From: Gordionus sp. m RMFG-2023
Lineage: Eukaryota; Nematomorpha; Gordioida; Chordodea; Parachordodidae
Length of the DNA: 64,000 nt
Direction: 5' to 3'
Assembly (NCBI RefSeq): GCF_954871325.1
Contig: NC_088776.1
Coordinates: 53,462,569-53,526,568 of the forward strand
Shown here one piece after another: positions 12,855 through 62,040 of this stretch; the first letter of the stretch is position 1; every line of letters begins with the position of its first letter. The notes under the pieces were generated by a model. It was not told the DNA's origin. It saw only the letters and a program-made list of their open reading frames with translations, and did no database searches. The translations under genes were made by a program, and so were the position numbers.

Positions 12855-13217
12855 ATATCTCTCAAACTTAGGGATTATACAATTCCTTCGGATCATAATT
12901 TACAAAAAGGCCCTTTAGGTCCTCACATATTTAGCTTAGACATACATAACCTAGTTACTTCTTTAAAAATTTTTTTTAACTTAGGAACATCTGCGGATTA
13001 TCAAAAAATATTCAGCGATAGATTATACAGAGTTGAATTCTATAAACATAGGTCTACTCTAAATAAAACTAAATCCCAAATAAGCCATTTGAATACAAAG
13101 GCCCAGGGGTTTAAAATAATTAAAGAAAGTGAAATTAATTTTATTGGTTTATCTGCATTTGCGTCTAAAAACCATAAGATGGTCTTTAGTCATCTGTTTT
13201 TGCTCAATACTCAATAG
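12855..13217 (+). CDS. 120-codon open frame without ATG start, unknown
   Basis: This frame is open for 120 codons and ends at TAG. There is no usable ATG at its beginning, so if real it is an exon or a truncated coding relic. In DNA this AT-rich, random frames hit a stop about every ten codons, so the length is unusual. Recognisable stretches include DYTIPSDHNLQKG, FSDRLYRVEFYKHRS and LSAFASKNHKMVFSHL. A phase-1 acceptor, TTTTAACTTAG, lies within it at 12984, so the true exon may be about 12985-13217 (77 codons). I recognise no domain. It could be a terminal exon of a spliced gene or a relic of an unfamiliar transposon. Confidence 0.5.
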   Translation: MSLKLRDYTIPSDHNLQKGPLGPHIFSLDIHNLVTSLKIFFNLGTSADYQKIFSDRLYRVEFYKHRSTLNKTKSQISHLNTKAQGFKIIKESEINFIGLSAFASKNHKMVFSHLFLLNTQ

Positions 13218-15528: not shown

Positions 15529-15546
15529 GGAGAGGTGCTTGTGTCG
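15529..15546 (+). CDS. Possible 18-nt micro-exon (RGACV)
   Basis: Acceptor AACATTTTTAG and donor GTATTAAT enclose 18 nt that are less AT-rich than their surroundings and read RGACV in the phase-1 frame used by the other micro-exons. There is no paralogue and no neighbour to join it to, so it is weak. Confidence 0.22.
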
Positions 15547-16399
15547 GTATTAATATTTTATTAGTTTAAAATGTCTTTTAATAAATGAATTTTTGATGAG
15601 AATTCCCTCACTCCCCCTTAAGCTAAGCCTTTGTCATTCTCTAAGAATTACTTATTTATTTTTATAACAAATAATATTTTATATTATTTAAAAATATATT
15701 AAGAAATTTTTTTATCTTTATATTTTAAAATATAATAGATTTGAATTCATTATATATTTTTTAAAGATTTTATTTAAAAATAAATTATATATAAAATTAT
15801 TTACAATTAAAAAAAAATTTATGATGAATATTATATTTGAACTTGATTACGCGAAGAGTTTCTATATGATTTAAGGACACATGGAGATATGGAGTAGAAA
15901 ATTGACACTGCACGAGTAAATAGTTTAAAAATACAAACATATTTTAATCGTAATTACATTTTTATCAAGTCTCCTATAATGAGAGAAACCGATTTTATAT
16001 AATTTAATTATACCATTTTTTAGCCTTCTAAATATAAAAAACATATATTTCCAGCAACTTCTTTATCAAGATACTACTACTTATAAAACTAACTAACCCG
16101 TTGGCATGCTTGTAACATATATATAATTTAAATCCCGATAAAAACATCAGAAAAACCCCCAGAAAAAATATCTTGAACTCCCAGAAATTTTTCTTTATGT
16201 TTATCAAATTTACTAAAGTCCTAATTATAAAGGCATCGTATTATTTACATTTTAATAAATACACTCATCTTTATAAGGTATAGACAAATTATATTTTTCA
16301 AAACCAGAATAAGACTCATTTTAAGTGACTGCTTAGACATCAAGTTTTTATACATAGCTTGGCATCAAGCAACACTTCCCTCCAAACATGAGGGTCTTT

Positions 16400-17240
16400 A
16401 AGATCCTCACTCTCGATTTTAATTTTTGCCATCATTGCTAGCCACCTACAAGCATGTAGATTAATTACCACATCTGTCAGTCCACCACCTTTTTGAATAC
16501 AGCTAGGACGGAGTGGTCAAAATCCATCATAACCACAACCATATTTTTGATCTCTGTAAATCAGAAGGATTGAGATCTACCACGGGAAAAACTCAGTTGA
16601 TTACTTTATTTTGAGTCTTTCACCTTTGGCTAGATCCACATTCATCAAACTTATCAAGGATCGGGGATATAAATTTTTAGATGTTATTCCATCTAGTAAT
16701 CACAAACTTGATTTGGACTGCCGCGAATTCAGCTATGTTCTATGTAACAGGTTATATTTTCCTTTCTCATTACTGTATAAATGCAGCAAATGTTATAATG
16801 ATGATGACAATTATGGCGCTGCACCCTTTACATTCCAATCGTAATCCCGATAGGCAAACCCGACACTCGAGATGCAATCAAATCATATCTCTTTCACTTA
16901 GGTCAGCTGGTTTACCTACCTCATTGGAGCCTTCTGTTCTTTTTTCCGATGGTAGTGCAGATGGAATAACACTAATTCCATGGTCACATTAAAAGTTTAT
17001 AATATGGGATTTTTCTTGTCTGTAAACGAACTCCCATTCTAATTTTAACAAAAACGATCTAAATAGAACGCAAAATTTTAAGATGGCTAAAAACATTGCT
17101 AATTCTTCTAATGTAACAATCATTTGCTCCACTTTATGATGATTTGGCTAGAAAAGAATTAAAGATGTCGTCGGCATAATCAGGAAAATTTCCGAAGAGC
17201 CTAGTGAAAGCTTTTATTTAAGGCAGAGGATCGCAGGCCA
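16400..17240 (+). pseudogene. Relic of a retrotransposon polyprotein C-terminal domain
   Basis: Several + frames, broken by shifts, read like the C-terminal domain found in large RT-associated polyproteins of many invertebrates. Seen here are FLDVIPSSNHKLD (16670-16710) before a cysteine motif KCSKC (16785-16800), then SLRSAGLPTSLEPSVLFSDG and DGITLIPWSH (16895-16990), then YLRQRIA-like sequence (17215-17240). The family normally has a LEPxGLxRxDGxRPDGxTLxPW core, which this matches with degeneration. Assignment to a particular retrotransposon clade is uncertain. A second fragment of the same domain lies at 40935-41110. Confidence 0.6.
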
Positions 17241-17495
17241 TTCCTAAGCCTAATTATGTTTGTTTTATTTCCTATCTTTCCTGATGATTAGGGCTTATTT
17301 TTGAATAAACTGGTTTATGTAACTATAATATTTTCTTAACAGTATTATATTCGCTTTTATTTATTTTGTATTTTCTATTAATTTATTATTTGTGTTCGAT
17401 ATTGCAATTTTGTTATCATAATTTGTTCTAACCATTATATTCTTATAATAAGGTGATTATATTTATATTCATACATTTTATAAAGTATAAATGTT

Positions 17496-17700
17496 GCCGG
17501 GGCGGCCCAGTGGTGTAACCGAAAGTTTTAGATTCAATCCTGGTAAGGAACTAAAAATTTTGGGTTTTTCTACGATGACGGATGTGTATAGATATATGAT
17601 ATGATAAATTTCTGAGTTGAGAAATGCCACCTCGGTCACCGGCAGTCTTTGACAGCCGGGTAAACCAAATAAGACAGCCAGCTTAACTCGTGGGTCATTA
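17496..17700 (+). mobile_element. tRNA-derived SINE
   Basis: The head has an A box (CGGCCCAGTGG, about 17503-17513) and a B box (AGATTCAATCC, about 17529-17539) spaced about as in a tRNA gene. It is followed by a non-tRNA body with GAGAAATGCCACCTCGGTCA. No poly(A) tail is obvious. The element runs directly into the minisatellite at 17740. Confidence 0.65.
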
Positions 17701-17739
17701 AAGGATGATAACGATTTCATGGCCAGCACCAGTTACCAA

Positions 17740-17960
17740 GCTACAATGGACTTGATAACAATACTCAGGTGGGAGATCCATCGGGTTGATACTCCGGTGG
17801 GAGAAATGGAATCGATAAGAATACTCCGGTGGTATATCTGCCGATTTAATACTTCGGTAGGATATCTGTCGATATTGATATTTCGGCATGAGATCAAGAT
17901 ACTTTGGCATTGATAGCGATACTACGGTGAGAGATCCAAATGGAATCGATCAGAAATATA
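17740..17960 (+). repeat. Minisatellite with GATACTCCGGTGGGAGA units
   Basis: Six or seven degenerate units of about 25-37 bp containing GATACTCCGGTGGGAGA-type cores, much more GC-rich than the flanks. ORFs crossing it on both strands are a product of the repeat. Confidence 0.75.
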
Positions 17961-20286
17961 AATTAGATAAAGATAGATAACATGAGTAATAAAGTGGAGA
18001 GAGATATTGAAGGAGCTTACCACCAGAAAAAGGGAAAGCTAAAAAGAAAAAAAATTTATAAAAAATCATAATATGTAAACCAAAAAAATATTATATAAAT
18101 ATACTTTATTAATAAGCTAATTTTTTTAATGGCCTATATCATTGAAGGTTACTAATATATCCTAAAATATGCCTAAACAAATTAAAATGGTGTTCAAAGT
18201 ATTATTGGGAAAAAAAACCCCGTAAAATTACCTTTGTAATTCTTATTTTGTGAAAAGTATTTGATATAATATAATAAATACAATATCCATCCACAATTAC
18301 GATATTAAGTAAACTAAATTTACTAAATTTTATAAGATACATTTATTTTATTGGTAAATCATCATTATTTATATAGAAATTTAATTTCTAATAATTAAAT
18401 AGATTGACATCGAATAATGAAAGAAATTGCTCTTATAAAATCTGAAGGCTTCGCACCTCATCTTGAAAAATATTACATAAATAGGAGAAGGAAATAAGAA
18501 AGAGTAAGTCTAGGGAAGGCACTTGAGAAGAGACTGCTGTTAAAGTGAATGATTTTTTTATTTTTAGAGAGTTTTAAATATGACAGATATTTTAAATAAA
18601 ATTATAAAAAAAAATATTAAATCACTAAATTTACAAAAATCTATCGAAGAAATAGAATTTTGAACATTAATAAATGTATAATTAATATTTAATATGTTTA
18701 ATGTAAAATATTTTATATATTTTATCCGAAAATTTATAATTTTTAATTATATGTAAATAGTTGTCTACAGAGTGCAAAGACCGAATAAATAATAAAATGT
18801 TATATATGAAATTTAAAATATAAATAAAATTTTTTCTAATTTTTTTTACATGTTAGCGTCAATATGTTTTACAAGCAATGTATTATTTTTTTCTAGTCTA
18901 AATCGTTTTTAGCTAGTCTTTTTAAATTTATAATGTTGATTTTACCAGAAATGTATTCCAGCATGTTTAGAATACCTATCTCATGAATTCTAGATAATTT
19001 TACCAATAACTTTAAATCATTTATAATTTATATATTCTGAAGATATAGTCATTTCTAATTAAACTGGTGCTATTGTTTAGAATAGTTATATTTTATTTTA
19101 TAAATTTTGTGTTTTGGATAAAATATCGTTGATAACATGCTTCCCTTGTTCAAAATCGCAAAATATGTCGAAAGATGGTTTTGCTAAATCAAATTAAAGA
19201 TTGCCTGATTAATTAGTGAAGTATAATTTAAGTTATTGTCTTGTTTTTTATCATTATTATCAATATAAACTTATTTAATTTCAAAATGATTTGATGGCTT
19301 AAAAGCCATTTTATATTCATAATTAAAATTAAAATATTTTCCAAATCATTTATTCAATCCAATTTCTTAGCAAATTATAGGGGAAAATGTAAATAGATTT
19401 GATGTATATCATGTATATCTACTTTATATAACTCTTCACAATAATAATAATTTTGGCTCCGCACATTATCAATAGCTGTTGCTAATGGATACATTACTTA
19501 AGTATCAAGATATTCTATGTCAATATCTTTATTTTATATTAATTTTTCACGCAGTTTTGTAAGATAAGATCTTAATTTTAATAAAAACACAACACTAACG
19601 TAAAGAGAATTTTTTAATAGTCTAGGATGTAAATTAAATATATGACATTAATTATATAAAATTTAATATATCATCAAATAACGAACAGATTTTCATTTAA
19701 AAGAGATATATAAGTACAGATGCAAGATACTTTTCAAAATGCATAAAATTTATCTTGTATTTAAGATGGATACTAGTTGCTATATGCCTAACCTTGTTAC
19801 GAACATACTTAATATTTACAATTGTACGGAATCAACCAAGGAATAGAAAATAATACTTTAATTTTTCATATTGCATTATTATTCAAATAAGAGTTATGAA
19901 GTATTACGACACATATAGATGATAATCAGAAATTTTATTAGTGATACTTAAATAAATTTAGATATATTGTTTTCGTGATACATTTGCATAAAAATCACCA
20001 AAAATAAAAATTTGGAAATATTTAAAAAAATATGTTAATTTATCCGAATTATTTTTCAAACAACATTTTATTATTTTTTTCAATATTTTTAATTCCATAT
20101 TTTAAATTTTATTATGTTGTATTTGGTTATAGAGGAACGATATGAAGTAAGTTTCAGCAGGGCTATAATATGATTCCTGACGGAACTAATACTTTAAACC
20201 AATGTCTTGAATGAGGTTAGGATAAACTCAAAATGTGAGGCATTTATGGATAGACTAGTTAATTTTTATATGATGACCCTAGGAAG
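17961..20286. other. AT-rich stretch, no confident gene
   Basis: A short ATG frame at 18418-18498 (MKEIALIKSEGF...) looks less AT-biased than average but is only 26 codons. Near 20124-20157 a frame ends at a consensus donor GAA|GTAAGTTT. Neither can be placed in a gene model. About 18890-19060 is a diverged repeat that recurs near 46480 and, inverted, near 48070. Confidence 0.4.
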
Positions 20287-20508
20287 TAGTGTTGTTAAAC
20301 GGCTCATTTTGAGCCGATTTTTTAAAACGGCGAACTCAATATTTTAGCCAGAAAAATATTGCCTAAGTCTCGAGATTTCGATAATATATGCTTGGACCTT
20401 TGTTCCTTCTGTGAGCAAAATCTTGAGGCTTGCGTAATATTTTTCTGGACGAAATATTGAGTTAGCCGTTTTTAAAAATCGGCTCAAAACGAGCCATTTA
20501 ACAACATA
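20287..20508. mobile_element. hAT-type hairpin MITE, copy 2
   Basis: Inverted arms of roughly 75 bp begin TAGTGTTGTTAAACGGCTC and end in the complementary sequence; the whole element can fold into a hairpin. The flanking octamers are ctaggaag (20279-20286) and ctaggagg (20509-20516), 7 of 8 identical. No coding capacity. Confidence 0.8.
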
Positions 20509-20970
20509 CTAGGAGGACTAAGAGGTCAATAGCATCCATAGACTTGTTTAATAGGAACTCCAAACATCCCTTTGCTACGATTCCTTCCGCAAATGATGTT
20601 TATTAAGTCTTTTAACTAATTCATATTTGGTAGGTCTACAATAAACGAATACGTATGAATCGAATAATTTACTATATGCGGGCATAATAAAATTTGCATA
20701 TTTGTAATTGATTCGAATTATTTCAAATAATTCGTTTTTTTGATATCAAAGTATCAAATATTTCACGTTTAATTTTTAAACAGAAAAAAATTATTAATTT
20801 AAACATGTGATCAATTTGCTTTGCCCCACTCTTTTTTTATCTCTGCATATAGACGTTTAAAGTACAATTATCGGACTGCTATGCATAAAAGTATGTGCGA
20901 CGTGTCCACAAACCTTTATAGGATTCCTCATTCTTAATTTTTTGACAAACTATATTCTTTTAGATGGTAA

Positions 20971-21090
20971 CCCTGAATTCACATTTAGCGCGAATACGCG
21001 TTGAAGTAAACAAAATTGATATAAATATTATAATTTTAAATACATTTTTGTATATTTAGCCGCGAATTCGCGCTAATTGTGAATTCAGTG
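20971..21090. mobile_element. Small palindromic MITE (GAATTCACATTTAGCGCG)
   Basis: Arms of about 30 bp, CCCTGAATTCACATTTAGCG and its near-complement GCGCTAATTGTGAATTCAG, enclose a short AT core. A degenerate relative is at about 51918-52012. No clear target duplication. Confidence 0.6.
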
Positions 21091-24000
21091 TATTGAGAAA
21101 TACCTAGTAATTCTGTTGAATCTTTAACCTTAGAGGTATTAATATTATAAACTACTTATTACGTAAATTCATATCAATTTAATGACAAGCTAGTTTTTAA
21201 GAAAAAGAGTTAAATCGTTCGTTATACATACTTTTACTTTAAAATTTTTTTTAAAAATGAGTTCATAAATAAATCAAAATTATTAAAAGATTTTATCAAC
21301 TTTTATTTAAATTTGAAAGCATTTTATTAAAGTTTATAATAGGAAAGAAGTGATTAATTTATCCTTTTCTTAAAAAGGAAATGATAAAACTTGTTCAGTT
21401 TTTAAACCTTCAAAATTTTACTTTAGTTGAAAATTTGATGAAATAAAATTTCAATTCCCATTTTTAATTAAACGATTAACTTATAATAGCCTTGAGTTTA
21501 GAACTAATTAATACATTAAGTTGTCAGCAATATTTTTTTATAAAAATCAAAAAATTCATACCATTATAATTTGTATTAGAAGGACTATTTTTGAAGAAAT
21601 ATTTTTGAAGGATTCTTTTTACCTAATAATTTTGAAAATTTATTGATTAAAATTCACTTGCTTTAAAATAATAAATCTAATTCGCAATTAATTATAATTA
21701 AAAAATTAAAACTATTTATATAGTTATCTAACTTTTAAATATCAAACTTTATATTTATATATGAGAATTAAATGGTTATAAGAAATTTTTTTTTTAATAT
21801 TGAGGGCTTAACTTTTTCAAAAGGAAGGTAAGAATTTATAAAAAAAACTCTCACCTAGTTAAAGATATCTTGATATTTTAAATAAATTTCGTTATAATAA
21901 CATTCAATTTATACTTTTGGGATTAAAGTAAAGAAGCTGCAATGATTAATAAATAATAATCATTTTTATAACTATACACAAATACTTTAAAATGACATTA
22001 TAATTTTTTCAGTATTGTGAGATATATTGATTCAATATATAAGATATTTATTTTTAATTAGATATGATAGGATACCTTAACCCACTAAGTTATTGACACG
22101 AAATGCTTCTCTCCAAACTCTAACCCCATATAACATTAAAATTTTAAAATTTCCTATCGATTTAAAATATTTTACCTTTGTTTCATGCCCTCCCCTCTTT
22201 TCTTTAAATGATAAACGAACCCCATAAAAGTCGACTCATTTTAAAATAACTGTAATCTTTTTTTACTTCCTAATATAGCTTTTATAAATATGCATTTAGG
22301 ACAAATGTATTTTAAAACAATTAGCTATTAAAAATATCATATAAAAAAAATTCTTGTGTTTGCATGACAGAATTTTTTATTAAGTCTTAATTAACATCAT
22401 TTATTCTGTCTAGATAATATTTTAAAATTAATAAAATTTAGAGTTAATGGTGCTTTTAAAACCACACAAGTCAACTAATTTAATTAATTTTTTTTGTCAT
22501 TATTACATTATATTCATTGGTAAGGCCACAGTTTTAGATGTGAGTTTTATTTTTTGTTACTTTTTCAACTCTAAATAAATTTATATCATTTTTGTATTTT
22601 AAAATCAATTTGCAAGAATTATATTTTAATTTGTGTAAAAAATATATAATAGTTGTCCTACAAATTTCAAATAATTTTATAATAAACTATTGAATAGATA
22701 ATAATTTATATTAATTTTTCTACAATTTTCTTAAATTTTAGTAATTATGAAAAATCCCATGACTCTGTGTTTGCGACAAAATGGATATGTTCCCTCTTCG
22801 ATAATTTACCTGTTTTTGTAATATCATTTTAACCTCTCCCTCACTTTCCTCTTTTATAAATTATTTATTATTGTCACTATAAATCATATTTTTAATAGAA
22901 AAATAAGGGAAAGATAAAATTTATTTAAAATATTTGTGACTCAAAATTATTTTTTAAAAAAATGTAAAACGGTCAAGGGCTTTAAAAACCGAAAACCGGC
23001 CAATAAAATTTAGTGTGAAAAAGGCAACCTAATAATTCTTCTCTCCCCCTACCGCTCATTTAGCAAAATGTTGACTTTCCTACGAGCCTAATAATGCAAC
23101 ATCGTAGTTGAGCCCGCACCTTTAGTGCTCTTCATAATAAAAATTTGTATTCATCACCAAATTTGAAATTTCATTAAAATAAAATCTGGAAGAAGTCTAA
23201 TTGCAGAAATTTTCTTTAGATTTATAAATAAAGCCTTAAATTTTTTCAATCTTAATTTAATTCAATTTAATTCATTTTATTTAATTATTGCTTATCAGAT
23301 ATTATCAATATATTTAAATTAATATCCTTTAAAGCCTCTAGTAATGTAACAAATTTTTTAAAAACGATTAATTTTATATTTAGACCTTCATTTTTTTATT
23401 GATAGACCAATAAACCTAAATTGGAATAAGGTTGTGCCATTGTTTCTATAAAATATTTATTAACTATTTAAAATAGTCTACACATTGAAGTTATAAGAAG
23501 TTTTATTTATTCAGATTAGTTTTATATTATTGAATTTATTCAGGCTTGAATAAAAGTATCCCAAACTTCCCAAGTCTCCAAAAATAATTGTGTTAAATGA
23601 TAATAAATTTAAGGAGAGAATTAAAATTTTGTTGTCTAAATTTTAGATAGGTCATTAAAAAAATTCAAAATGGAAGAGATTTTACAGCATTGCGCAAAAT
23701 CAACTAATTAAAATTTGAAATAATAAAATCAAATAAATTCCTATATCTTGTAATAATGTTTAAAATTGTAAAAAATAGTAAATTAATTGAATTGGTAGCA
23801 GAAGGGGGGGGGGGGTGTTAGTTAAAATGGTATGTTTTCTCTTCTAAAAATCAAAATTAATCATAATTAAAAATATTTGGTTTTGAAGGTCTTTAAAAGT
23901 ATAAAACAACCTTCTTACATATTTTTTTTTAAATTTATTTTTAAAATTGAAATTAAGATACAGCATTTTCTTTTATTTTTTAATACTTATTAAAGAAATA

Positions 24001-24843
24001 ACGAGAATATTTAAAATTTTTCTAAAAATTAATATAATTTATAACTGAAATTAGTATCATACAATAATTCTCATTAAAGAATTTGTTTTAATTAAAAAAT
24101 ATTTAATAAAAAAGATTTTATGCTAAGTATATTATTAAGGCTCTATAACACGAGGATATATGTTGTAGCGATAAATATCTATGTGATTTTATGGACTTGT
24201 TATGGAGATATGGATAACACTGCTATACTAGAAGGTTAAATAACACTACTATTAAATATAATCTTCTCTAAAACTTTCCAGGTCTTTTATATTGTTAAAT
24301 AATTAAAAAATCATTGATTAAAATGCAATTCCAAAGTAATTCTATTTATCGTTTATTTAAAGAAAAAAAGATTCTAATTTTATTTAATTATATATCTAAG
24401 AATTAACATGATGATAATATTTATTTTTGTTAACTAATAATTTTTGAAAAATCTAAGCACATTTTACTAAATGTTTACATTCGCGAAAACTATTTCAGAG
24501 TTGTGATTTCTTTGAAAAATCACTATTATAATTTTTTATTTATCCCTTAAAAATCCAACTTTTTTTAATGAATAATAAAATATTTTTTAAATATATTCCT
24601 TATTTATATCTCCTGATGAAAAATTTCTAGTTTAAATTTTATTTGAGAATGCATTTATTAAAAAATAATTTTTCCATATGATATGGGCCACTAAATACAA
24701 CTAACCTTATAATAAATATTTTCAGCTTCTATTTGTAATTCACTGATAATAGATGATACATCATAAAAGATTCTAGAAATATAAAGCTTATAATTTGGCC
24801 AAAATATAAAAATGAGAAAGTTAAAACTAAATACAAGCAAAAG
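21091..24843. other. AT-rich stretch, no gene recognised
   Basis: Intron-like or intergenic AT-rich DNA with homopolymer runs, including a G10 tract near 23807. I see no gene, RNA or mobile element that I can support. Confidence 0.55.
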
Positions 24844-36975: not shown

Positions 36976-37639
36976 TTTACCCCATAACTTAGTCGGAATA
37001 TTTTATAACAAAAAAAAATTACCTGCATCAGGATCTATTAATTATTTTATTTATATTTTTGGTTATAAACTAAATTATTTTTATTTTTCTCCTTATTATA
37101 AAGTTCACGAATTTACCGTTAAAATATAATTTCGAGTCAAACGGTATTTACAAGCTTAGCTTCCAGTTTAAGGTATGCGACATGTGGTTCGACACTATAG
37201 AAACTATTAAACACGTCAAAATAGGTATTAAAATTTTTTTTACATATTAAAAGGAGTTAGAATTTATTTTGATTAGGTCCTATTTTAATCATTATTTCTT
37301 CCTTTCAAGCTAAAAGAAAAGGATTTTAATATGGGATAAGTAGTTTCTTAGTATCGTAGGGTTTATAGAATAAATGGAAGAAAAATTTTTTTTTTAGAAA
37401 ACATAAATTAAATTTAAAAAAAACTAAGATAAAATATCATATATAATTTGATAATCTGTCTATTTATTTTGTTGGAAAAAATTAAATAATTCCTTTTTGA
37501 TTTTCTCATATCGATTCAAAAATTTTCAATTATAAAAAAAACTTGTATAGATAATAGACCTCTCAATAAATACTATGGTAAATTCTTCTTCTTTTTTCAA
37601 AATTTATTATTTTAGACCATGAACTTTGAATTATTTTTA

Positions 37640-44282: not shown

Positions 44283-44830
44283 GGCCAAGGGACATTCCTA
44301 AAGCGAATTTCGGTAAAATTTGATTATATTATTTAATATTAAACATTTTTTATTATGTACTTATTGCAAAAAATATAGAAAATTTAGAGGAATTTTTGCA
44401 AGGAATAGAAGGTATAAATATATACACCTATTTTTTATAAATTTTTGCTTTGATAATCTAAAGCAATTTGTTACTTATTAAAAATAGAAATATATAATAG
44501 GTTTTAGAATATGGAGTATGCTTTGCATATTTGTGATATTGATTATTTTATAATATTAGAATTTTAAATTTGTTATTTATTCAAGGAGAGCCTAATCTTG
44601 TCCATTTTCCTCAAGGTATTATATTTATCGATTTTTACAATAACATCCTTTATATTTACATAATATTTTTTACCATTCCCTATTTATATATGCAGAGTTG
44701 AATCCTGCTGCCATTGAAGGTTTTAACATATAATATTTTAATTAAGATTTTATTTTATTTACCATAATTTATATTTGCTTAATATAATTTTAGATTTTTT
44801 GCAGCTTATTCAAGATATTGGGGCCAATGA
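44283..44830 (+). CDS. Micro-exon gene, 3' end (four micro-exons plus terminal exon)
   Basis: Five consecutive exon candidates join in one open frame, all introns phase 1: 44283-44312 (30 nt, PRDIPKANF), 44379-44411 (33 nt, NLEEFLQGIE; or 24 nt from 44388 using a second acceptor, also in frame), 44586-44615 (30 nt, EPNLVHFPQ), 44696-44719 (24 nt, LNPAAIE) and 44805-44830 (YSRYWGQ, stop TGA). Junction codons give Glu, Gly, Glu and Ala. Introns are 66, 174, 80 and 85 bp. Several acceptors are good (TATATATGCAG, GATTTTTTGCAG) and all donors are G|GT. Exons are visibly less AT-rich than introns. AATAAA occurs near 45017. Upstream exons are missing, perhaps left of the MITE at 43779. No known family. 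Confidence 0.6.
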
Positions 44831-45289
44831 TGCAGTAGGTTTATGGGCGATGTATTTTCTTTCATGAACATATTTCAAATCTCGTTTTAGATATGTTCTA
44901 TTATTCTATATTTTGATTATACAGTGAAAAATATATAATATATTAATTAAAAACAAAAAAATTTAGACAAAGCATATTTATTAATCGATTAAAGAATATA
45001 ATGAAAAATAAAAAGAATAAATAATGTTTAAAAATCAATTGTTTATTTATAAAATATATTTTAAGCAAAAATTAATTTTTAAAAAAATTTACAATTTATT
45101 AACTTTTTAAAACTCCAACTATTTTTTGTAAAACACTTATGGGATTTGTTATGAATAAAAAATCTTTCAAGAAATTTTAAATATTAATATTTGTTAGGAT
45201 TTATTTTCTTTAATTTAAATTCAATTTATTTCGATAAAAATATGTTTATATATTTCATTTTATTATAAAATCATAATATATAAAATCAT

Positions 45290-48746: not shown

Positions 48747-49862
48747 ATAATTGTAGTAAGTTTTAGTTAAATGTATATGTAACATGATTATTTAAATTAA
48801 TATTATATTGGAGCCCAATTTTGTTTGCTCAACAGCTGCTTCTTCTGGTTTAATTTATTCTGATTTAAAATATAATGTTGTTCTTATATTAATTTTTTAA
48901 ATGGTTTGTTTATTATAGATAAATTTATTTATGGAGAGAAATGCGGATCTTTTAAAAAATTAATAAACCAATAATTAGGCCAAATTAGGCAGATTTGACT
49001 GAATATATAAAGTAGAATTCTTTATAAAAAATTTTGTTGACCTCAAAAAAGAAATTTAAAATGTTAAACAGCTTAATGACCAGTCCTAGAAATATTAAAG
49101 ATGTTTTATTTTTTCAGGACTAAAATTTAGTACAATTATATACTCAAATTTTTACATTCAAAATATAAAATTTTAAATACTGTGTTTTTTATAGTCCAAT
49201 ACGGTAATTTGTTTCAATTTTATAGAATTTTAAAAAAAATAAAAAACTTTACTTCAAGCGGCATATCTGATTGATCCCGTAGGAACAGGTTCCATAATCT
49301 ATAAAATTATATATATAGCCATACAATATTCATCACGACTTTTCATTATCTAAAAATTTATATAATTTGGATTTATCACAAGATTCGTCAAATTAATGGA
49401 TATTTTCTTATTAATTTCAAAGAGGTATAGAAAGAGTTACATCATGTTATAACAAGTTTAATCAGATATCCAATTTTTCATTAAAATTTGACATGGGACA
49501 ATTTACACTTACAAAGTGTAAACTTTGTATTACTTTTCTTTATTAGTGTAAAAAATGTATCAAATTGGAGCCAAGGTGAGCTTTACTCATCTTCATCTGA
49601 AGAATTTGTAGAATTGACATAATATTCTTTATAAAATAAATTAAAATATTAATAAAAATCAAAATTTACATTTCTTGATTAATTTAATATTAATTAGATT
49701 AACAAACTTGACTAACAAAGAAAATTTAAAATAAAAATAAATAAATTTGGAGGTTGTTGTGAATTAAAAACTCGGCTTAAATTATATGTAAAATTTAAAA
49801 AATAAATAAACATATATATAATACAATAAAATATGTTCTTTTCCATATTTTTTAGGCGTTAA

Positions 49863-50093: not shown

Positions 50094-52645
50094 AGAATTC
50101 GGGAAGGCTTTCACTTATTTTTATTTCAAAATTTTTGTTGCATAATATTAACAATATTTTTCTTTGTATATTGAAACAGACGGAATTGAAAGTAAATCTA
50201 TATAAAATATATTTTGAGCTTTTCAAATTTAAATTGACTCGGTTTAACATTTCACATTTTAACGTTTAAAATTCCTGGTTTCATAAAATTTAAAATTTAA
50301 ATAATGTTATTTAAAAATCCCTTTAAAAAATTAATCAATCAAATTTCCTGATTTCACAGTTTTTTAATTTTTCAATATTATAACAATAGATTTGTACATT
50401 GTTAATTGAAAGATATATGGAGTAATCAAAAACTCACCTACGTTTATGAAACATACTTAATATTTATTAATGAATGCAACAAATGTCAAACTTATGATGA
50501 GGGTATGACATCATAGCACCCTTTATAATATTAACAAATATTGGCCGACAAACAGTTGATTAATACATTATCTACAAAATTTGAATAAAAAAATTATTAA
50601 AAGTAATAATAATCTAAACATGAACTTATTTGAAAAAGAGAATATTAATTTACCACTTTATTTCTAATTTAGTAAGAAGGATTTAGCAATTTCCTTTTAT
50701 TCTTGAAAGCTAGATAAGTCCAAAATTTATTTGTTAGCCCGAACTCCTTATATTTACATCCGAGCTCATCTCGATAAATGTATAATTAAAAAGCTATTTA
50801 AATAATAATCAAATATATTTATTATCCTTTTATTTTAAATTAAAAAAAAATAGAAAACATTATTTTCTAAATTGAAATTTTAAACCATACACCATCCCTT
50901 ATATATAAGTCCCGAGCTTTAGACCGATTTGCAGGATTCTAATCAATATTTTTAACAATATGTTAATTTTATTTCAGATGCTCAAAAAAATTTCTTTTTC
51001 AAAAATAATTTTATATTTTATTTTACTTATTTATATTATCAAAAAGTGGCCGAAGAAATTATTTCAAGTAAGATTATCTGTTTTATAAAGACTCCTATTT
51101 AGTCGCTGAGAAATTTTTTTTACTAAACGGTTTGAATTCTCTGCAAACATATTGAATGCTTGGATAAAAAACTAAATTGCCCGTAAAAGATAATAATTGA
51201 TAAAATATAAAACTTGAAACGATTAAATTTCTTCAGGTTCACCATAAACAAAAACTATTAGTTAATAATGCTTATTTTTATAAAGCAAAATCTTTATAAA
51301 TGTTCCTCCTCCCGGCATAATAACCCTAGTCTGTAACACACTAATACTATCTCATTGTGTTTTTTGTAGAAAATAATCCACAATAATGGTTAAAAATTCT
51401 ACTCTCATGAATGCCAAATACACCATAAAGGAATCAACTATATTATAAGCTTTCTAAAAAGCTAGCAACCCTTCCCTCGAACCAGATAGTTTCCTCAATG
51501 ATAATTTAAAAGAGGGGTGTTATTTTAATACCTTGTACTAATGGTGTTCCCTAGCCTAGCTCTTGAACTAAACTTATATTCATTTTCAACTATCAAATTT
51601 AAAAATTCCCAGTGGTATATCAGGCTAGCAAACAAACCTTAAATAAACAAATACTTGACCTTTCAAATTCAATTTTCATGCCCATCGGGAGAAAATTACC
51701 TTAGGGAACCTGAGATCTAAAAGAGAGATTTTATCTTCTATTTAGTTATCTTCACTCGTCCCTTCACATGCTTTTTTAATCAGAGAATTTTCTTTTAAAA
51801 ACAATTTTTTTTTTTGAAAATGCGACCTGTTAATTTATTTTTGTTAATTTGAATTATGTTGATTGTGAAATTTACAACCAATAAATAAATGTTGAATGAT
51901 TTATTATATTGTTTTAGACCCCTTATTTAGCATGAATTTGTTGCGAAGAAACAAAAATACTGTCTATGTTGTAAATTTTGCCGTGAATTCGCTCTAAATG
52001 TTAATGAGGGGGTGATTAATTTAAATGAAAATTATTCCAACGATTTATTTTAAAAAAATATTTTTTGTAAAATGGCCAATCCAGGATTTTTTATTTTTCT
52101 AAAAACCTGATACGAGTTTTTAAAATAGTACCATTTTTAACCCGTTTATGGGTCTACCCCTAGCTTTAATTTAAGACCCATGTGAATTTATTATATCGTA
52201 ACTCCCACCCCAGATTTCTGTTTATGTTTAAATATTGTGATACCCCCCTCCCCACTCTTTCTTCACAAATATCCAAATATTCAAAATGACTATTGACACT
52301 CCAATCGATATTATATTTTTTTCAGTTAAAATCTGACGCAAGATATTTTGTTTAAATATTTTTTTTATATTTAACTTTCCTCATAATTATAATTATGCGG
52401 ATGATTAACAAAACGCAAGATTTTTTAATTTTAAGATGTCGAAATATTATGTTGGAATTTTTATCCCCTTCTCACTTCCTTTTCCAGGCTTACCTTGATA
52501 ACTTAGAGTTGAGTAGCAATGTAAATGGAAGAATTTATTAGATATATTAAAAAATTTTAAACCCCGTATCCGCCCCACCAGCCACTCAGACTAACCACTT
52601 AATATATAGATGTTAACGATGAATTCAATATATTTGTTTATTCAG
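50094..52645. other. AT-rich stretch, no confident gene
   Basis: Includes a degenerate palindromic MITE at about 51918-52012. A pyrimidine-rich acceptor CTTCCTTTTCCAG at 52488 opens a short frame AYLDNLELSSN ending at TAG (about 52539). Not enough to call a gene. Confidence 0.4.
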
Positions 52646-53435: not shown

Positions 53436-56400
53436 TGTTACTAGAACCTGAGGCCGGTAAAAATATTTTTAATAAAATAAAATAGTTTAATAATATTTTT
53501 AACAAGAAATAGAAGAAGTTGCTCCAGGTAAAAATGTTTGCTAAAAACACATTTCATACTTGTTTTTAAAATCAACAAAAATATTGATTTCAATACATTT
53601 TAAAACTTATATGAAGTTTTGCAAAGTAGCCTATTCGGTAGGTTAAAGATTTTAGCCCAGATTTTTTGGCGGAGCGGGCTCAAATTCTTTTGTCAGACAT
53701 GTTATAGTTTTGAAAACAATTTGCCCCTTCTTAAAATTTTATAAAAAATTAGAGATTTGCCAGGCTTTGTCTACATTTTATGTTAAAATTGTTATTGCCC
53801 AGCCCTAAAGTTTATTATACACAAATGACCTGGCTGGCCCGTAAAATCTTTTAACCGGCAGGGCTTTTAGACTTCCGGAGGGGCCAAGCACGGGGTTCGC
53901 AGATCTCTAGCTTATATTATAAAGGTTTCCATATAATTAACATATTTAAAATTTTCCGTTTCTTGGAAAATTCTTGCATTTGTTACAAGTCTATGAACAT
54001 TCATTCATAACTTTTGAGATGGCTCAGCATCTACAAGTTGGGTTCCTGATCAGTAATGCCATATATTTGCTGCTTAATTTTAGTTGAAACCCAGCTGTAC
54101 TTCTATATCGTTAATGTAAATTATATTAAAATTTTCATCTTTCACTTTTAATAGTTTTGAAATGTGCCTCTTTAGACCCGGTTATATTTTAATATATTCC
54201 CGAAAAACTTCACATTTATTACAAAAAAAATTTAATAGTTTTGATAACTTTCTAATTTTTTTTACCCTTCAATTCAAGGAGATATTATTTATTTGATTGG
54301 TCAAAATATTTGCTCTCTAACAACAATTGGGAACCGGCTCAAACCGGGACCAGCCTAAGACAATGTTAAGTTTGAAGCGTGTAAATTAACCAACAATATT
54401 AGCAGAAATAAGAAGCTAGTGGACTTAAAAATGTATATAACAACTAGTAGCGAAAGAAAGATGATAAGATAGATAAAAAATGAAAAGAAATAAAATTTTA
54501 AAAATAATTAAATAATTAATATATTTGTTTTAAGTGCTAGCAGAAATTCTTCCAGGTAATAATATGTATTTATAAGATGTATGTTAAAAAAAAATATTTA
54601 ACACAAATAAATAAAAAGATTTTTATAATAGAAATAGGAAAAATGAAAGAAATAAAAGATAAGAAAGAAAAGAAATAGAACATAATAAATGAAAGAAATA
54701 AATAAATAAAACAGAATAAAAATATATAATATTAAACATTGGATTGCAAAAATTCTTTTCCAAAATCAAATAAGTTTTTTTATTAGCATTGTTTTATCAA
54801 AAATTTTATGCAGCAAAAATACTTATTCATAATTTTATATAAACCTTAAGGATTTTCCATCTTAAACTTATCATTCTTTTCTATAATTAATAATGTTGAT
54901 AAAATTAAAATAGAGATAACTTATAAAGGAACATTTACAACGAGTTTCATAAGTTATATATTAGTGCTGATTATTGTTATATATTCACGAATAAAAGCAA
55001 GCCTAGATTTGATATAAGACGACATTTTTATTTTTCAATCATATTAGTAGAGTAAATAGCAACTTTTATTATACCATTAGATAATGATTTGATGCATTTT
55101 ATGCACTCACCTAATCAATCATCTCCCTTTACTATCAAAGGAAGATTACAGATAATCCTGGAAAAAAAATTTTAATTCATTTTTCTTGTATTAATTCTTT
55201 TATTCTTTATTATATTATATCTGATTAGTAACTAAGGGTTTAGCTTTATTTTTCCTTGTCCACTTCAATTTTTTTGGAATAAGCAACCAATATTACAAAT
55301 GCCTCATTTCTAGTATAAAGATTTTTAATAAATTTATATTATTTTAATTATAATTTCTAATGTTTATTTCTGGGAGAGATGATGAATTATTGGTTTAAGC
55401 TTGACAAAAGTAAGTTATCAGCAAAGGGTTTAAATTATAGAAGCTTCAATGTATTTTTTCCAGCAAAGTTCACTTTTTTTAAAGTAATGATGAGCATGCT
55501 ATATATCTTAGAATTTGTAGAATACCAAATCTACTTTATAAATTCAGAAAATTTTGTTGTAAACATTTCAACCATTCTTAATTTACAATAATTTTTTCTC
55601 AAATTTAAAATAAATTAAAGGTTCTTAATGAGAATAACTAAATTTATAGGGTAGATATATATAACCTACACATGTTTGATTACATTTCCAGCAAAAATTT
55701 ACTTTTCAAATTTTAAAATAACATACACAGTTTTCAAAAATTATCACAGTGTTAGTGCTGAAAACAAACACATAATGTTTTGATCAGTGGAAATTAGATT
55801 ATCCAATATTAAATAAATTTATAATATATACAAGCTTTTATTAATAAGTGGTAGAGGAAATTGCACCAGGTAAGAATATGTTTCATAAAAATAATAATTA
55901 TAATTCATCAAAAGACATAACTCATTAATGCAGGCACAATTTACACACTGTATTTTTTTAAATTTTACATCTTTATTAATTAAAAAATCAAAAAAGAAAT
56001 ATAATCCTGATATTTAGCTAACAATATTTGGTTATTGGTGTAGGATGTAGGCAGTTAGTAAGACGTTATAATTATGTAAATTTTATACCTATCCTTTATG
56101 CCTTATTTTAAAATAAATGAATGTAATTTTTAATTTGCATGAACTGTTTTAAATTAACAGTTAATTTTAAAAAAATCCAAATGAGTTAATCAGTGTTCGC
56201 TCGATCCAGATCACCAACAATACTTGTAAGACACTGTTTAATAATGATATTGAAGATTAAACGAAAATAATAATATTATGATAAAGAGAAATTTATTTCA
56301 ATTTATTTATGCTAGGGATAATATATTAATAATTACCATAATTGCCGTCTTAACAAAAAGTTTATTGTTTTCAGAATTTAATTGGAAAAAAACCAGTATT

Positions 56401-59400
56401 TTTAATCATACCGTTTTGTCATTGCTACATGTAGCTAGTAACAAAGCATATCAATTTAATATGCCTTATTAGGATTGTAAAGCTTAGAAATTTATTTAAA
56501 AAGTTTAAATTTTTTGCAATAAGTATGTAATATTATTTTAACTTAAAGAATAAAAAAGCTATTTAAAAATATTTTTAATTATTAATCTACTAACAAAAAA
56601 ACAAAATTTTAAGACACCAAAAATATTTATGTGGTCGTTCAAAATTATTCTAGTCCTCTTCTTAGAGTATCCTCCTTTTAATTTTTCTTAATTCGCTTAT
56701 TCAGTCTATTCTGTAATATTATAATTTTAAAATCATTCATTCGATAATAATAATTTCCCTAATAATATATTTTAACATATTATATATTTTTTTAATCAAC
56801 CTTTTTCATTTTAAAATATTTTAACAATTATTACTATTTTTTGGTTATATTGTTTTAAAAAGATATTTTTTATAGATCTTATACTTGTAAAATTAAGAAA
56901 CTAATAAATTTTTTTGGAAAGTAATTAGTAATAATTATATTTTAATTTTAGGTAATTGAAATTGTAATAAATTTCTTTTTTAAATAACCAACCCTTTTTC
57001 AAAATTTAAAAAAATAAATAAGAATGAATATCAGAGACCTGCAGAGGTACCATTTGCACAGCCCGGCCCGGCCCGGTTTTAAATTTTTTAGGCCCGACCC
57101 GGCCCGGATATTTTTAAAAAAATTTTTTACGGCCCGGCCCGGATTTAAAAATTTAAGGCCCGGCCCGGATTTAAAAAATTAAGGGCCGGCCCGGATATTT
57201 TTTTAAAAAAAATTTCAGGCCCAGGAATTTTTTAAAATTATATTCGACCTGGTATATACAAAAATTCACCTATGAGGTATTTTACCATATTTTTCAGCGA
57301 GTTTTATCGCTTATTATTTAAAAAATACATGTAAAAAGCTAATATTTTGAGAATATTATATTGAATTTATAAAAATTATAAAACTGTTATTTATAAAAAT
57401 GGATATTTTGAGCATATACTATATTTTATATTGCATTTATAAAAATAAAACTAATATTCATAAAAATGGTAATAATATTTTTAGCATATACTATATTTTA
57501 TATTGCATTTAAAAAAAATAAAACTAATATTTAATTTATAAAAATGTATTATATTTTGAGAATATAATATATTGTATTTAATTTACTATTTAATTTATAA
57601 AATAAAAATAAATCGCTATTTAAAAAAATGCATGTATAATAAATAGTATTTTGAATATAATCTAATTGCACAATATTAATATAATTTATTTTATATTATA
57701 AATTTTTAACAAAAGAAGATAAAAAAGAATAATGAAAAATGTTGGATAAAAAGAATAATGAAAAATGTTGGATTAAAAACTTTCATGACTCAAGGTAAAT
57801 ATAATAAATGCAATAAATATTTGACAGTTTGCAAAGTAAAAAACCAGCATGATTGACGAAACCCTATACTCAAGAAAAATATTAAAAATTCACAAATTAT
57901 CATGAAGAAAGAGAAGCATAACTACCTTTTCAGGTTGAAGATTACTTCTTCTTTCTTCAAGAATTCTTCCAGTAGTGGAAAAATTCCGCTCACAGCTTGC
58001 ACTTGAAGCAGGAATGCTTTGATGAGCCGCCCACCACTCTAACAAATTATCCACCTTAAATGTTTCATCTATTTTTTTATTTATGTAATTATAATATTCA
58101 TCATCGGGTATTGACATATTGCCAGAATTACAACGCCCCATTTGTCATAAAACGATTCAGTTTGTTTAACAACAGTCGTAATTTGACTGGTGGATGGTAT
58201 TTCATTTACTTCCTGAGCCTCTTGTAATTTAATATAATCTTTTATATAGTTTTCCGTCATCTTGCGATCTGTCCTTGACTACATACATAATTGCTTAAAT
58301 TTGGGACAGAGAAAAAGAGAAATAAAATGATACTTGTGTAAAACAAATTTTTTAATTAAAAAATGCTTTATATTAAGTAAAATCAATTTTATTTCTCAAT
58401 TTTCGCTTTGAAAGGTATTACAAACTTCAAGAAGTGATATTCCTTTATTTGATTATTTCGGTAAAATATATTCTAAAAATTTAGATATGAATTATAAAAA
58501 AATATATTAATAATACTTGAATATTAGGGCTTATTTAAGATATTCCTTTATTTGATTGTTTTGGTAAAATATGTTGTAAAAATTTAGATATGAATTATAA
58601 AAAAATATATTAATACTTTGAATAAATTTGCAGGAAATTAATAATTAGATCGATCTGTGGGTGTTAGGTAGTATTAACCATCACCCAATATATTATTTTA
58701 ATCATAACTGTAATATAATATAATCTTATAACCCTTAACTCATAATGTAAAAATTTTTATAAAAAATATTAAGGCCCGTCCCGGGTTTAACAATCTTAGG
58801 CCCGGCCCGGATATATTTTAAAAAAAATTTTTTAGGCCAGGCCTGGATATGTTAAAAAAAATTTTTTTAGGCCCGGCCCTGCCTGGGTATATTTAAAAAA
58901 GGCCGGGCCTGCAGGTCTCTGATGAATATTAAGCAAAATTAATTTTAATTATTCTTTTATAACAAGTAATATGAGAAATAATTCCAGATAAGAATATTAA
59001 TTATAAAAAATAGTTTATATTTTAATAAAAATATGTGCCGTAAATTTAAAAGGTATTATCAGAACTATATTGAATAATATTGGGATTTTATATGTTTTAA
59101 AAAAAATAAGGATACAAAATTTTAAAAATATAGTAAAAATAGCCAGTAAAAATATACAAAAATGATTGTTTGTTTTTTGTATGGATGCCACCAATAATAA
59201 TAAAAATTGTAAAATAGACAAATTTTTCTTGTAGTTAAATAGATTAATTTTTTATCAAATGTTGTCATATTTTTTATTTTCAATTTGTACTCTTTGAAGT
59301 AGCAAATCATATATAGATTTATTGTAAAGATCTTAATAAGCATCTAGATCGAAGAAATGCTATAATCTTCGGACAAATGAGGCTATGAAAGCTTACAACT

Positions 59401-59989
59401 TGAGTAAAAAGATTATTATAAAATAGATCTGAATATTTATTGATTTTGCTAAACATTGTTAGAAGGTCACAATTGATTTAAGGTGTAACAATATTTTAGT
59501 AGGAATATAATTTATACGCTTTCCCACTAATTTGTGGTAGCATCATAGAGCATTTACGCAACGAGAAAAATTTAGATGTTACATCGAATATAAAATTCAG
59601 CTGAGATGATGGATTTAAAAAGATGGATCTTCCCTCTACTGCAGAGACTTTTAAGCAATTCATGATTAAACCTCAAAATATTATTGTAGCATTTTATTTT
59701 AGTTAAAATAGAAAGAATTATAATTATAAAATTTTTATTATATAATATTAGTTGCAGGAGAAGCTGGTGCTGCTGCAGGTAAAAAATATTTGGTTTATAA
59801 AAATATTTTATAGATTTTAATTGAGAATTTATATATTAAGAGTGGAGTAGACAAGATTTTCCAATAGGGGGTAACTCCATTTTATCAGGTCTGCTGGCTA
59901 GGTCCCTTCTATAAAAAATTATTATTTATTTTTCAGTGATCTTTTTATACTCTCCGTTTAAGTTCTCTGAGCAAGCCCTAATTCTATAA
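53436..59989 (+). CDS. Heptad micro-exon gene
   Basis: Candidate exons: 53436-53456 (LLEPEA), 53507-53527 (IEEVAP), 54535-54555 (LAEILP), 55849-55869 (VEEIAP), 59752-59778 (AGEAGAAA) and terminal 59937-59989 (IFLYSPFKFSEQALIL, stop TAA). Internal exons are 21, 21, 21, 21 and 27 nt; every intron is phase 1 and every donor is G|GTAA. Junction codons add Glu, Val, Val, Val, Val. Each 21-nt exon therefore encodes one seven-residue unit with Glu at a fixed position and usually a final Pro. The smallest intron is 50 bp; the largest (3.9 kb) contains a hAT element (57032-58921). The first exon and start codon were not found. A signal peptide, and thus secretion, is unknown. An alternative terminal exon is at 56375. 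No known family. Confidence 0.58.
53640..53910. repeat. Decayed GGCCCGG-type hAT MITE
   Basis: GC-rich blocks GCGGAGCGGGCTC, CTGGCTGGCCCG and CCGGAGGGGCCAAGC, ending GTTCGCAGATCTCTAG, which resembles the complement of the CAGAGACCTGCAG end of the element at 57032. It lies in the intron between the IEEVAP and LAEILP micro-exons. Confidence 0.5.
56375..56472 (+). CDS. Alternative terminal exon of the heptad gene
   Basis: After the strong acceptor TTATTGTTTTCAG the phase-1 frame is open for 32 residues to TAG (FNWKKTSIFNHTVLSLLHVA, then SNKAYQFNMPY). Joined to VEEIAP it gives Glu at the junction. The frame also continues open upstream to an ATG at 56278, so a short intronic ORF is another reading. 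Use of this exon would end the protein before the AGEAGAAA unit. Confidence 0.35.
56875..56985 (+). repeat. Remnant of the EEVP-exon flank, exon decayed
   Basis: AGATCTTATACTTGTAAAATT and AAGAAACTA match the sequence upstream of the micro-exon at 1700. At the exon position the sequence is TTTTAGGTAATTGAAATTGT, which lacks a proper phase-1 reading, so this micro-exon appears lost. It continues, after the hAT insertion, into the 59255-59830 homology. Confidence 0.45.
57032..58921 (-). mobile_element. hAT element with GGCCCGG subterminal repeats
   Basis: Inverted ends CAGAGACCTGCAG and CTGCAGGTCTCTG, with exact 8-bp duplications atgaatat (57024-57031 and 58922-58929). About 200 bp at each end consists of GGCCCGG blocks separated by A/T tracts. 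A transposase remnant lies on the - strand at 57890-58260. It is inserted in a large intron of the heptad micro-exon gene. Confidence 0.92.
57890..58260 (-). pseudogene. hAT transposase C-terminus, deleted
   Basis: The main frame (58141-57890) contains NLLEWWAAHQ then IPASSASCERNFSTTGRILE and LLFLHDNL, the hAT C-terminal dimerisation domain. The usual dozen or so residues (normally like YPxLSxLAxxxL) between WWxxH and IPASSAS are missing. A further frame starting at 58260 (MTENYIKDYIKLQEAQEVNE) joins by a frameshift near 58150. The catalytic core is absent, so the element is non-autonomous. Confidence 0.85.
59255..59830 (+). repeat. Third copy of the AGEGAA-exon cassette
   Basis: Aligns with about 1880-2300 and 7030-7460 through shared intron strings such as CAATTTGTA, ATTTATTGATTTTGCT and CAGCTGAGATGA, then the micro-exon at 59752 and its donor-side flank. 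Confidence 0.6.
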
Positions 59990-61239: not shown

Positions 61240-62032
61240 CATATATGCATATTTTCATTGATCTTATCATTCGCTCACACTGACCATTGAACTTGTTGTA
61301 AGCTGTAAATCGACTCTATGTAATCGCCATTGGACTGTTGGTGGTGAGGCGTGGTGAAAATGTGTTCAATTACATGATCACTGCAAAATTTTTTGAACAA
61401 GTTACTTGTAAAATTAGTACCATTATCAGAGATTATTTTATTGGGTATACCAAATAAGCTGATTATTTTTAACAATTCTTTGATTGTTGACTCAGTAGTT
61501 ATATCTCTCATTCTTCTAATGATAGGAAACTTGCTAAATGCGTCAAGAAATACCATGAAATTGCTACCTTCAAATTGTGCAAAGTCAATGTGCACGCGTT
61601 CGAACACTTTTACAGCTGTTTCCATTGATTTTGTACAATATGAGGATTGTCCGCATATTTATTACACGTATCACAGTTTCTGACCTCCTGATCTATTTCA
61701 GCGTTTAGACCAGGCCACCATAAGTAATCTCTCGCCAACAATTTCGTTTTCCCAGCACCAAGATGCCCTTTGTGTAATTCCTGTAATATCTCCTTTCTCA
61801 TATTTTTCGATATAATGATCCTATTCTCTTTAAAAAGACAATCTTTAATTAAGCTCAGTTCCATTTCCATATTTTTATATATTTTATTCTTTATCTGTTT
61901 ATGATTCTTTATATTTTTAATTACCTCCATTAATTCGATATCAATACTAGTTTCTTGAACTATTCTTTTAAAATTTAATGGTAAGTCCCAAAATTTGTCA
62001 TCAATTATTTCATCATCTATCTCTTTTACCAT
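61240..62032 (-). pseudogene. Integrase (zinc-binding and catalytic domains), frameshifted
   Basis: The zinc-binding region has LHKGHLGAGKTK (H-x2-H) and RNCDTCNK (C-x2-C) with DYLWWPGL between. After a shift near 61620 the catalytic core shows HIDFA (first Asp), DAFSKFP, SDNGTNF (second Asp) and TPHHQQSNG. The third catalytic residue is in NGQCER, which occurs in another frame near 61275-61290 after a roughly 40-bp insertion, with SNG repeated on both sides. Role: insertion of retrotransposon DNA. Inactive as it stands. Confidence 0.85.
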
Positions 62033-62040
62033 TTCTGATT

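Follow-up and report, generated by a model that had tools for sequence, protein, structure and literature searches.

What kind of gene places coding exons of 21 nucleotides (nt), all bounded by introns of one phase, in the genome of a horsehair worm? The question arises from a 64-kb stretch of contig C2 (the window) in the 287-Mb genome of Gordionus sp. m RMFG-2023 (Nematomorpha). An initial annotation had proposed that a gene of symmetric micro-exons lies here, built from five internal exons and a terminal one. Comparison with the neighbouring DNA places the five exons in the acidic C-terminal tail of a 30-exon gene, gene E. This gene belongs to a family of tandem copies in Gordionus sp., and its product is probably secreted.

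Gene E and its tandem copies

Five gene copies (A to E) were compared on 284 kb of C2, made up of the window, 200 kb upstream of it (264 kb together) and 20 kb downstream; D and E overlap the window, and copy A was read just from part of its tail onward. From B to E, each first exon is separated from the next by 55 to 79 kb. Gene E covers about 50 kb (C2:53486688 to 53536636), from window position 24120 to 10 kb beyond the window end, and was modelled by comparison with its paralogs, exon ends being taken partly from a deposited predicted protein, P0001. Its internal exons are flanked by AG and GT in 28 of 28 cases, 21 of the 28 are 51 nt or shorter, and the 30 exons join into a frame of 479 residues that is open to its stop. 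In both D and E, exon 7 and all later internal exons (up to exon 29 in E) are in phase 1 on both sides, so that duplication, loss or skipping of an exon leaves the frame intact. The earlier suggestion that any subset of exons would remain in frame holds for exons 7–29 of gene E.

The five internal exons (exons 20–24 below) lie exactly where the initial annotation had put them, flanked by AG and GT, in phase 1 and free of stops. They are real and carry a repeated unit, as it had supposed, but they make up only some of the tail exons at the C-terminal end of a longer gene that has 19 further exons upstream, from window position 24120. The proposed terminal exon at 59937–59989 was not borne out: no counterpart was seen in D, and gene E continues with further exons to C2:53536636. 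A dead micro-exon had likewise gone unlisted. The exons of gene E are given below in window positions, with the support for each ("profile" is the position-weight model described in the next section).

24120–24234, + strand: exon 1, with the ATG and a likely signal peptide, MLSILLRLYNTRIYVVAINIYVILWTCYG; identical peptide within P0001
28042–28181, + strand: exon 2; P0001
28475–28601, + strand: exon 3; P0001
30005–30025, + strand: exon 4, 21-nt micro-exon DYRISKI; P0001
32794–32939, + strand: exon 5 (ARISYHKE...)
37104–37224, + strand: exon 6; P0001
37551–37577, + strand: exon 7, 27-nt micro-exon DNRPLNKYY; omitted from the E half of P0001
41793–41879, + strand: exon 8, 87 nt, symmetric; P0001
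43199–43288, + strand: exon 9; P0001
43543–43635, + strand: exon 10; P0001 continues beyond its donor, then stops
44283–44312, 44379–44411, 44586–44615, 44696–44719 and 44794–44838, + strand: exons 11–15, micro-exons; alignment of B to E; missing from the E half of P0001
49195–49203, + strand: exon 16, 9-nt micro-exon VQY, looked for because the D half of P0001 contains VQL; AG and GT retained in B, C, D and E
49259–49288, + strand: exon 17, AAYLIDPVGT
50180–50191, + strand: exon 18, 12-nt micro-exon DGIE; P0001 lacks the D counterpart
51047–51067, + strand: exon 19, VAEEIIS
53436–53456, + strand: exon 20, VLLEPEA, 21 nt (first of the five); profile, paralogs
53507–53527, + strand: exon 21, EIEEVAP, 21 nt (second); profile, paralogs
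54535–54555, + strand: exon 22, VLAEILP, 21 nt (third); profile, paralogs
55849–55869, + strand: exon 23, VVEEIAP, 21 nt (fourth); profile
58967–58987, + strand: dead micro-exon, VI*EIIP, with in-frame TGA and AT at the donor; left out of the model
59752–59778, + strand: exon 24, VAGEAGAAA, 27 nt (fifth); profile, paralogs
beyond the window end, + strand: exons 25–29, of 24, 21, 21, 15 and 15 nt
C2:53536605–53536636, outside the window, + strand: exon 30, the last, 32 nt, VEEGNEINIF and stop

The intron between exons 23 and 24 also holds a 1890-bp element (window 57032–58921), which ends 45 bp 5' of the dead exon. Its ends are inverted, CAGAGACCTGCAG/CTGCAGGTCTCTG, the target is duplicated over 8 bp (ATGAATAT), and we take it to be of hAT type.

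The family extends beyond the stretch that was read. D and E sit in a tandem array on C2, and the family reaches two further chromosomes, with a copy on C1 and exon arrays on C5. A genome search placed at least four more copies, at C2:53197126, C2:53641778, C2:53712048 and C1:91519082; on C5 it matched exons near 7.74–7.84 Mb. Exons VLQEPEA, EIEEVAP and VLAEILP are retained with their splice sites in the copy at C2:53641778, as are VIIEPDA and EIEEVAP in that at C2:53712048; the C1 copy gave three profile matches. On C5 the profile found 16 sites on the + strand and 0 on the − strand in three 10-kb pieces (6, 10 and 0 per piece), and the N-terminal part was not detected in the 30 kb read with P0001–P0006 as queries. 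If these heptad exons truly stand without an N-terminal part, the tail module would also move between genes.

Support for the micro-exons

Pairs of AG and GT enclosing an open frame are common in this DNA, with 856 candidates of 12–147 nt in the 54.6-kb unit of gene D. The profile is a position-weight model, with length variants, that spans the exon and the 8 nt on either side; its training set was 31 exons, four of the five among them. Scanning the 264 kb with it at one threshold gave 52 sites on the + strand, compared with a single one on the − strand and none when the sequence was reversed. The 52 consist of the 31 training sites and 21 others; they include the dead exon of gene E, and a GT donor is missing from several more.

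Splice sites and frame were also followed between copies. For the 22 micro-exons of D, both are retained in 20 of 22 in B, 21 of 22 in C, 11 of 15 aligned in E and 9 of 11 aligned in A, compared with 26 of 123, 30 of 112, 11 of 51 and 29 of 93 open control AG..GT pairs in B, C, E and A, a comparison biased by the choice of several exons because paralogs had kept them. With the frame ignored, the control counts rise to 45 in B, 48 in C, 15 in E and 44 in A. Random AG..GT chains with the exon lengths of gene E, sampled from its own region, were stop-free in 0 of 20,000 cases (mean 38 stops), a test biased in that the real exon was retained where there was no piece of equal length and the exons of E were homology-guided.

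Deposited proteins provide a further comparison. Protein searches covered 5.77 billion proteins, within a reach limited to shared short words, and the first scored just the 7,999 candidates sharing most words. They gave 2, 5 and 8 matches, nine different proteins in all, every one from Gordionus sp. m RMFG-2023; no relative outside Gordionus was found among the 5.77 billion, where the presence of other hairworm proteins was not checked. The strongest outside support for the micro-exons of gene D is P0001, itself a prediction. A first model of D, made from paralogs before P0001 was seen, had 29 exons and 482 residues; P0001 matches 18 of its 20 internal micro-exons exactly; of the other two, one has its acceptor shifted 3 nt downstream in P0001 and the other, of 12 nt, is absent.

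The present model of D differs in three points that P0001 prompted or supported: exon 5 starts later, and exons of 9 nt and 15 nt were added, the latter already a candidate. It has 31 exons and 473 residues, is open to its stop and ends at window position 11160. The earlier start of exon 5, at 53439005, was replaced by 53439056; the removed stretch differs by 1 nt in length in E. Among the 29 internal exons of D, 22 are 51 nt or shorter. The stop of its terminal exon matches in position those of A, B and E, and that of C falls four codons later. The tails of D and E, from exon 11 to the last, are both exactly 473 nt long despite their different exon sets. The exons of D within the window are as follows.

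1700–1717, + strand: exon 26, VVEEVP; P0001 has a 15-nt form, VEEVP
2229–2249, + strand: exon 27, VAGEGAA; P0001
6835–6855, + strand: exon 28, AIEGLAP; P0001
7411–7431, + strand: exon 29, VGEEAAA (IGEEAAA after an exon ending in A); P0001
8796–8810, + strand: exon 30, 15 nt, EILLM; AG and GT retained in A, B, C and D; P0001
11129–11160, + strand: terminal exon with stop, VQEGNKINIL*; paralogs only

Two introns of gene D share a 2.7-kb stretch that is 98% identical (C2:53432766–53435412 and C2:53459939–53462613, the second running into the start of the window), probably a recent insertion. A weak DUF4371 match, under the curated cut-off, lies at window 3254–3745 on the − strand.

The other deposited proteins point to more N-terminal exons in the genome. 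Exon by exon, P0002, P0003, P0004, P0007 and P0008 match B to E at up to 97%, and none fits one copy throughout; they would therefore derive from N-terminal exons that lie elsewhere than in the 284 kb covered here, and one of them could be copy A. The deposited annotations also hint at variation. Exon 7 is used in the D half of P0001 and absent from its E half, and isoforms X2 and X4 of a related gene, LOC135924810, differ by 29 residues, corresponding to one 87-nt symmetric exon.

Predicted products, exon turnover and possible function

The proteins predicted for D and E begin with a hydrophobic N-terminus, and products of full gene copies are probably secreted, the signal peptide having been judged by eye and hydropathy; the predicted peptide is present in the E half of P0001 and in P0002. 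The N-terminal part is basic (isoelectric point, pI, 9.5) and holds 10–11 sequons, 10 possible N-glycosylation sites in E. One C..Y..C stretch, FPCDFNSYNISFYLTC, can be picked out in it by eye; a CYC motif is among the criteria for bicycle genes. The tail of E, 156 residues coded mostly by exons of 9–33 nt, is acidic; in both D and E it has a pI of 4.05 and 2–3 K/R per 156 residues, and its composition is repetitive and rich in A/E/I/V/L/G/P.

No known domain was recognised in the family proteins: Pfam and NCBIfam gave nothing above cut-off for the D protein, P0001, P0002 and P0004, and protein sequences of the PDB gave no significant match (two weak hits, E 0.56 and 0.73). An AlphaFold model of P0004 (5 sequences) had a mean pLDDT (predicted local distance difference test) of 41.7, with ten-residue means of 61–74 for residues 31–110, mostly strands. 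The model is of low confidence and at most hints at a beta domain.

Ratios of nonsynonymous to synonymous substitution rates (dN/dS) were 0.36–0.47 for exons 1–10 (6 pairs), 0.30 to 0.87 for all micro-exons from exon 11 on and 0.33 to 0.91 for the heptad exons alone (ten pairs each). Exons 11–18 among B, C and D gave 0.28 to 0.55, on few synonymous changes. Introns diverge between copies by 14 to 17% at aligned positions (11,775 to 21,358 of 41,047). These values are compatible with a reading, which they do not prove, in which the N-terminal part is under purifying selection and the tail is less tightly constrained.

The tail exons also multiply together with their introns. A two-exon piece of gene D is present three times, as exons 24–25, 26–27 and 28–29; the copies have diverged, and their introns match at 71–80% in parts. 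The exon arrays on C5, whose spacing is in part about 300 or 600 nt, sit in self-similar DNA (64–83% match). Exon–intron pieces thus duplicate as units, to several degrees of divergence.

Horsehair worms are parasites that steer their arthropod hosts into water. The mechanism of this manipulation is called largely unknown in one account (PMC12456768). The reading that we favour, and consider rather probable, is that of a tandemly repeated hairworm gene for a probably secreted protein with a phase-1 micro-exon tail and a role at the host interface. Each full gene would yield a signal peptide, a basic N-terminal part rich in glycosylation sites and an acidic tail. Tail exons, duplicated, lost or skipped with their introns and with the frame intact, would make tails differ between copies and perhaps, through alternative splicing, between transcripts. 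Released by the parasite, the proteins may have their role at the host interface, and the varied tail would change faster than the rest.

The same architecture might instead serve a structural or protective secretion of cuticle, egg string or mucus, in which the hydrophobic proline/acid repeat is a material property; we regard this as possible, at clearly lower probability. The repetitive composition of the tail favours it, and elastin genes, named in the initial annotation, also have a uniform split-codon phase. Against it stand, weakly, the shortness of the tail and the non-repetitive N-terminal part beside it, with its roughly ten possible N-glycosylation sites.

Somewhat less likely still, the family would be real and copy E partly decayed, its N-terminal exons in use and its tail exons, the five included, relics. 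Several observations favour this or count against our preferred reading, and some do both. P0001 fuses D to exons 1–10 of E and goes no further; the five exons are therefore absent from all deposited products found, as are the terminal exons of both D and E. The D half of P0001 begins at a Met downstream of the predicted signal peptide. Gene E carries the dead exon, and exon ends are shifted in its exons 9 and 17. For exons 11–18, dN/dS rises to 0.99–1.49 in comparisons with E, on 6.5–8 synonymous changes, which relaxed constraint would fit too. Splice sites are also missing or altered in other copies, with one micro-exon of B lacking both and one having a GC donor, one of C without AG at the expected place and two of A without a GT donor. 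Decay of E is opposed by the 28 intact internal exons and the open 479-residue frame, and by three sister copies that each retain two or three of the same exons.

The abundance of open AG..GT pairs notwithstanding, chance pairing in AT-rich intron sequence is the least credible account, given the strand-specific profile sites and the use of the same D exons in P0001.

Elsewhere in the window, a retroelement gave matches to the integrase core and to integrase zinc-binding at 61275–62038 on the − strand, and Rfam gave 0 matches. In the whole genome, 48 COX1-like matches are spread over several contigs; many contain internal TAA or TAG, which points to numerous mitochondrial insertions.

Comparison with known micro-exon systems

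Schistosomes and plant-feeding Hemiptera have known micro-exon genes that encode secreted proteins. Gene E is of the same design, being long and split into many tiny exons with one dominant phase, and having a likely signal peptide; it could be a true member of one of these families by shared ancestry or transfer. We consider this very improbable: the protein searches, within their short-word reach, gave Gordionus matches only, D scores far under the cut-off of the bicycle classifier, and the share of short exons in D and E lies well below that of the schistosome genes, as set out below.

Schistosome micro-exon genes (MEGs) have about 80% of their coding sequence in short symmetric exons of 6–36 bp (PMC5825161). 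Here, exons of 36 nt or less make up 444 of 1422 nt in D and 444 of 1440 nt in E, or 31%; in the tail alone they make up 396 of 473 nt (84%) in both. MEGs are said to appear restricted to platyhelminths (PMC4350168). The probably secreted products and runs of tiny symmetric exons recall them, and the nearest layout to D and E is that of schistosome VAL-6, a VAL gene with a MEG-like stretch and possibly composite (PMC4350168). The initial annotation had seen such a design without a sequence match to these families, and this agrees with our results: no MEG was matched in the protein searches, which need shared short words, MEG sequences not having been compared directly.

In the pea aphid, KQY1a spans 45.7 kb with 37 exons, 33 of them 15 bp or smaller, and KQY/KHI loci are mostly scattered (PMC7495047). 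The Gordionus genes are similarly long, at 42–50 kb with 30–31 exons, and would encode similarly small secreted proteins. Unlike KQY/KHI genes, they are tandem, have a conserved N-terminal part and favour larger micro-exons: 18 of the 22 in D measure 18–33 nt, and only 4 of the 28 internal exons of E are 15 nt or smaller.

The many small internal exons of bicycle genes in aphids, phylloxerids and coccids begin almost without exception at codon position 2 (PMC9168663), as do 27 of the 29 internal exons of D. The long conserved N-terminal part sets the Gordionus genes apart, and the bicycle gene-structure classifier, with the coefficients of PMC9168663, scored D, the one gene submitted to it, at 0.048 against a cut-off of 0.72.

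A full-text literature search, which covered neither preprints, most subscription papers nor the Gordionus genome papers, found no paper on nematomorph micro-exon genes, as judged from titles and the openings of abstracts. We put forward, tentatively, that hairworms evolved a micro-exon family independently, with a secreted modular tail reshuffled by duplication and splicing and a role in host interaction or manipulation. If so, the loci named here would offer a starting point for asking what hairworms release into their hosts. The design is common to MEGs, KQY/KHI and bicycle genes and membership is not; an independent instance in Nematomorpha would suggest that parasites repeatedly arrive at fast-changing secreted proteins by way of symmetric micro-exons.

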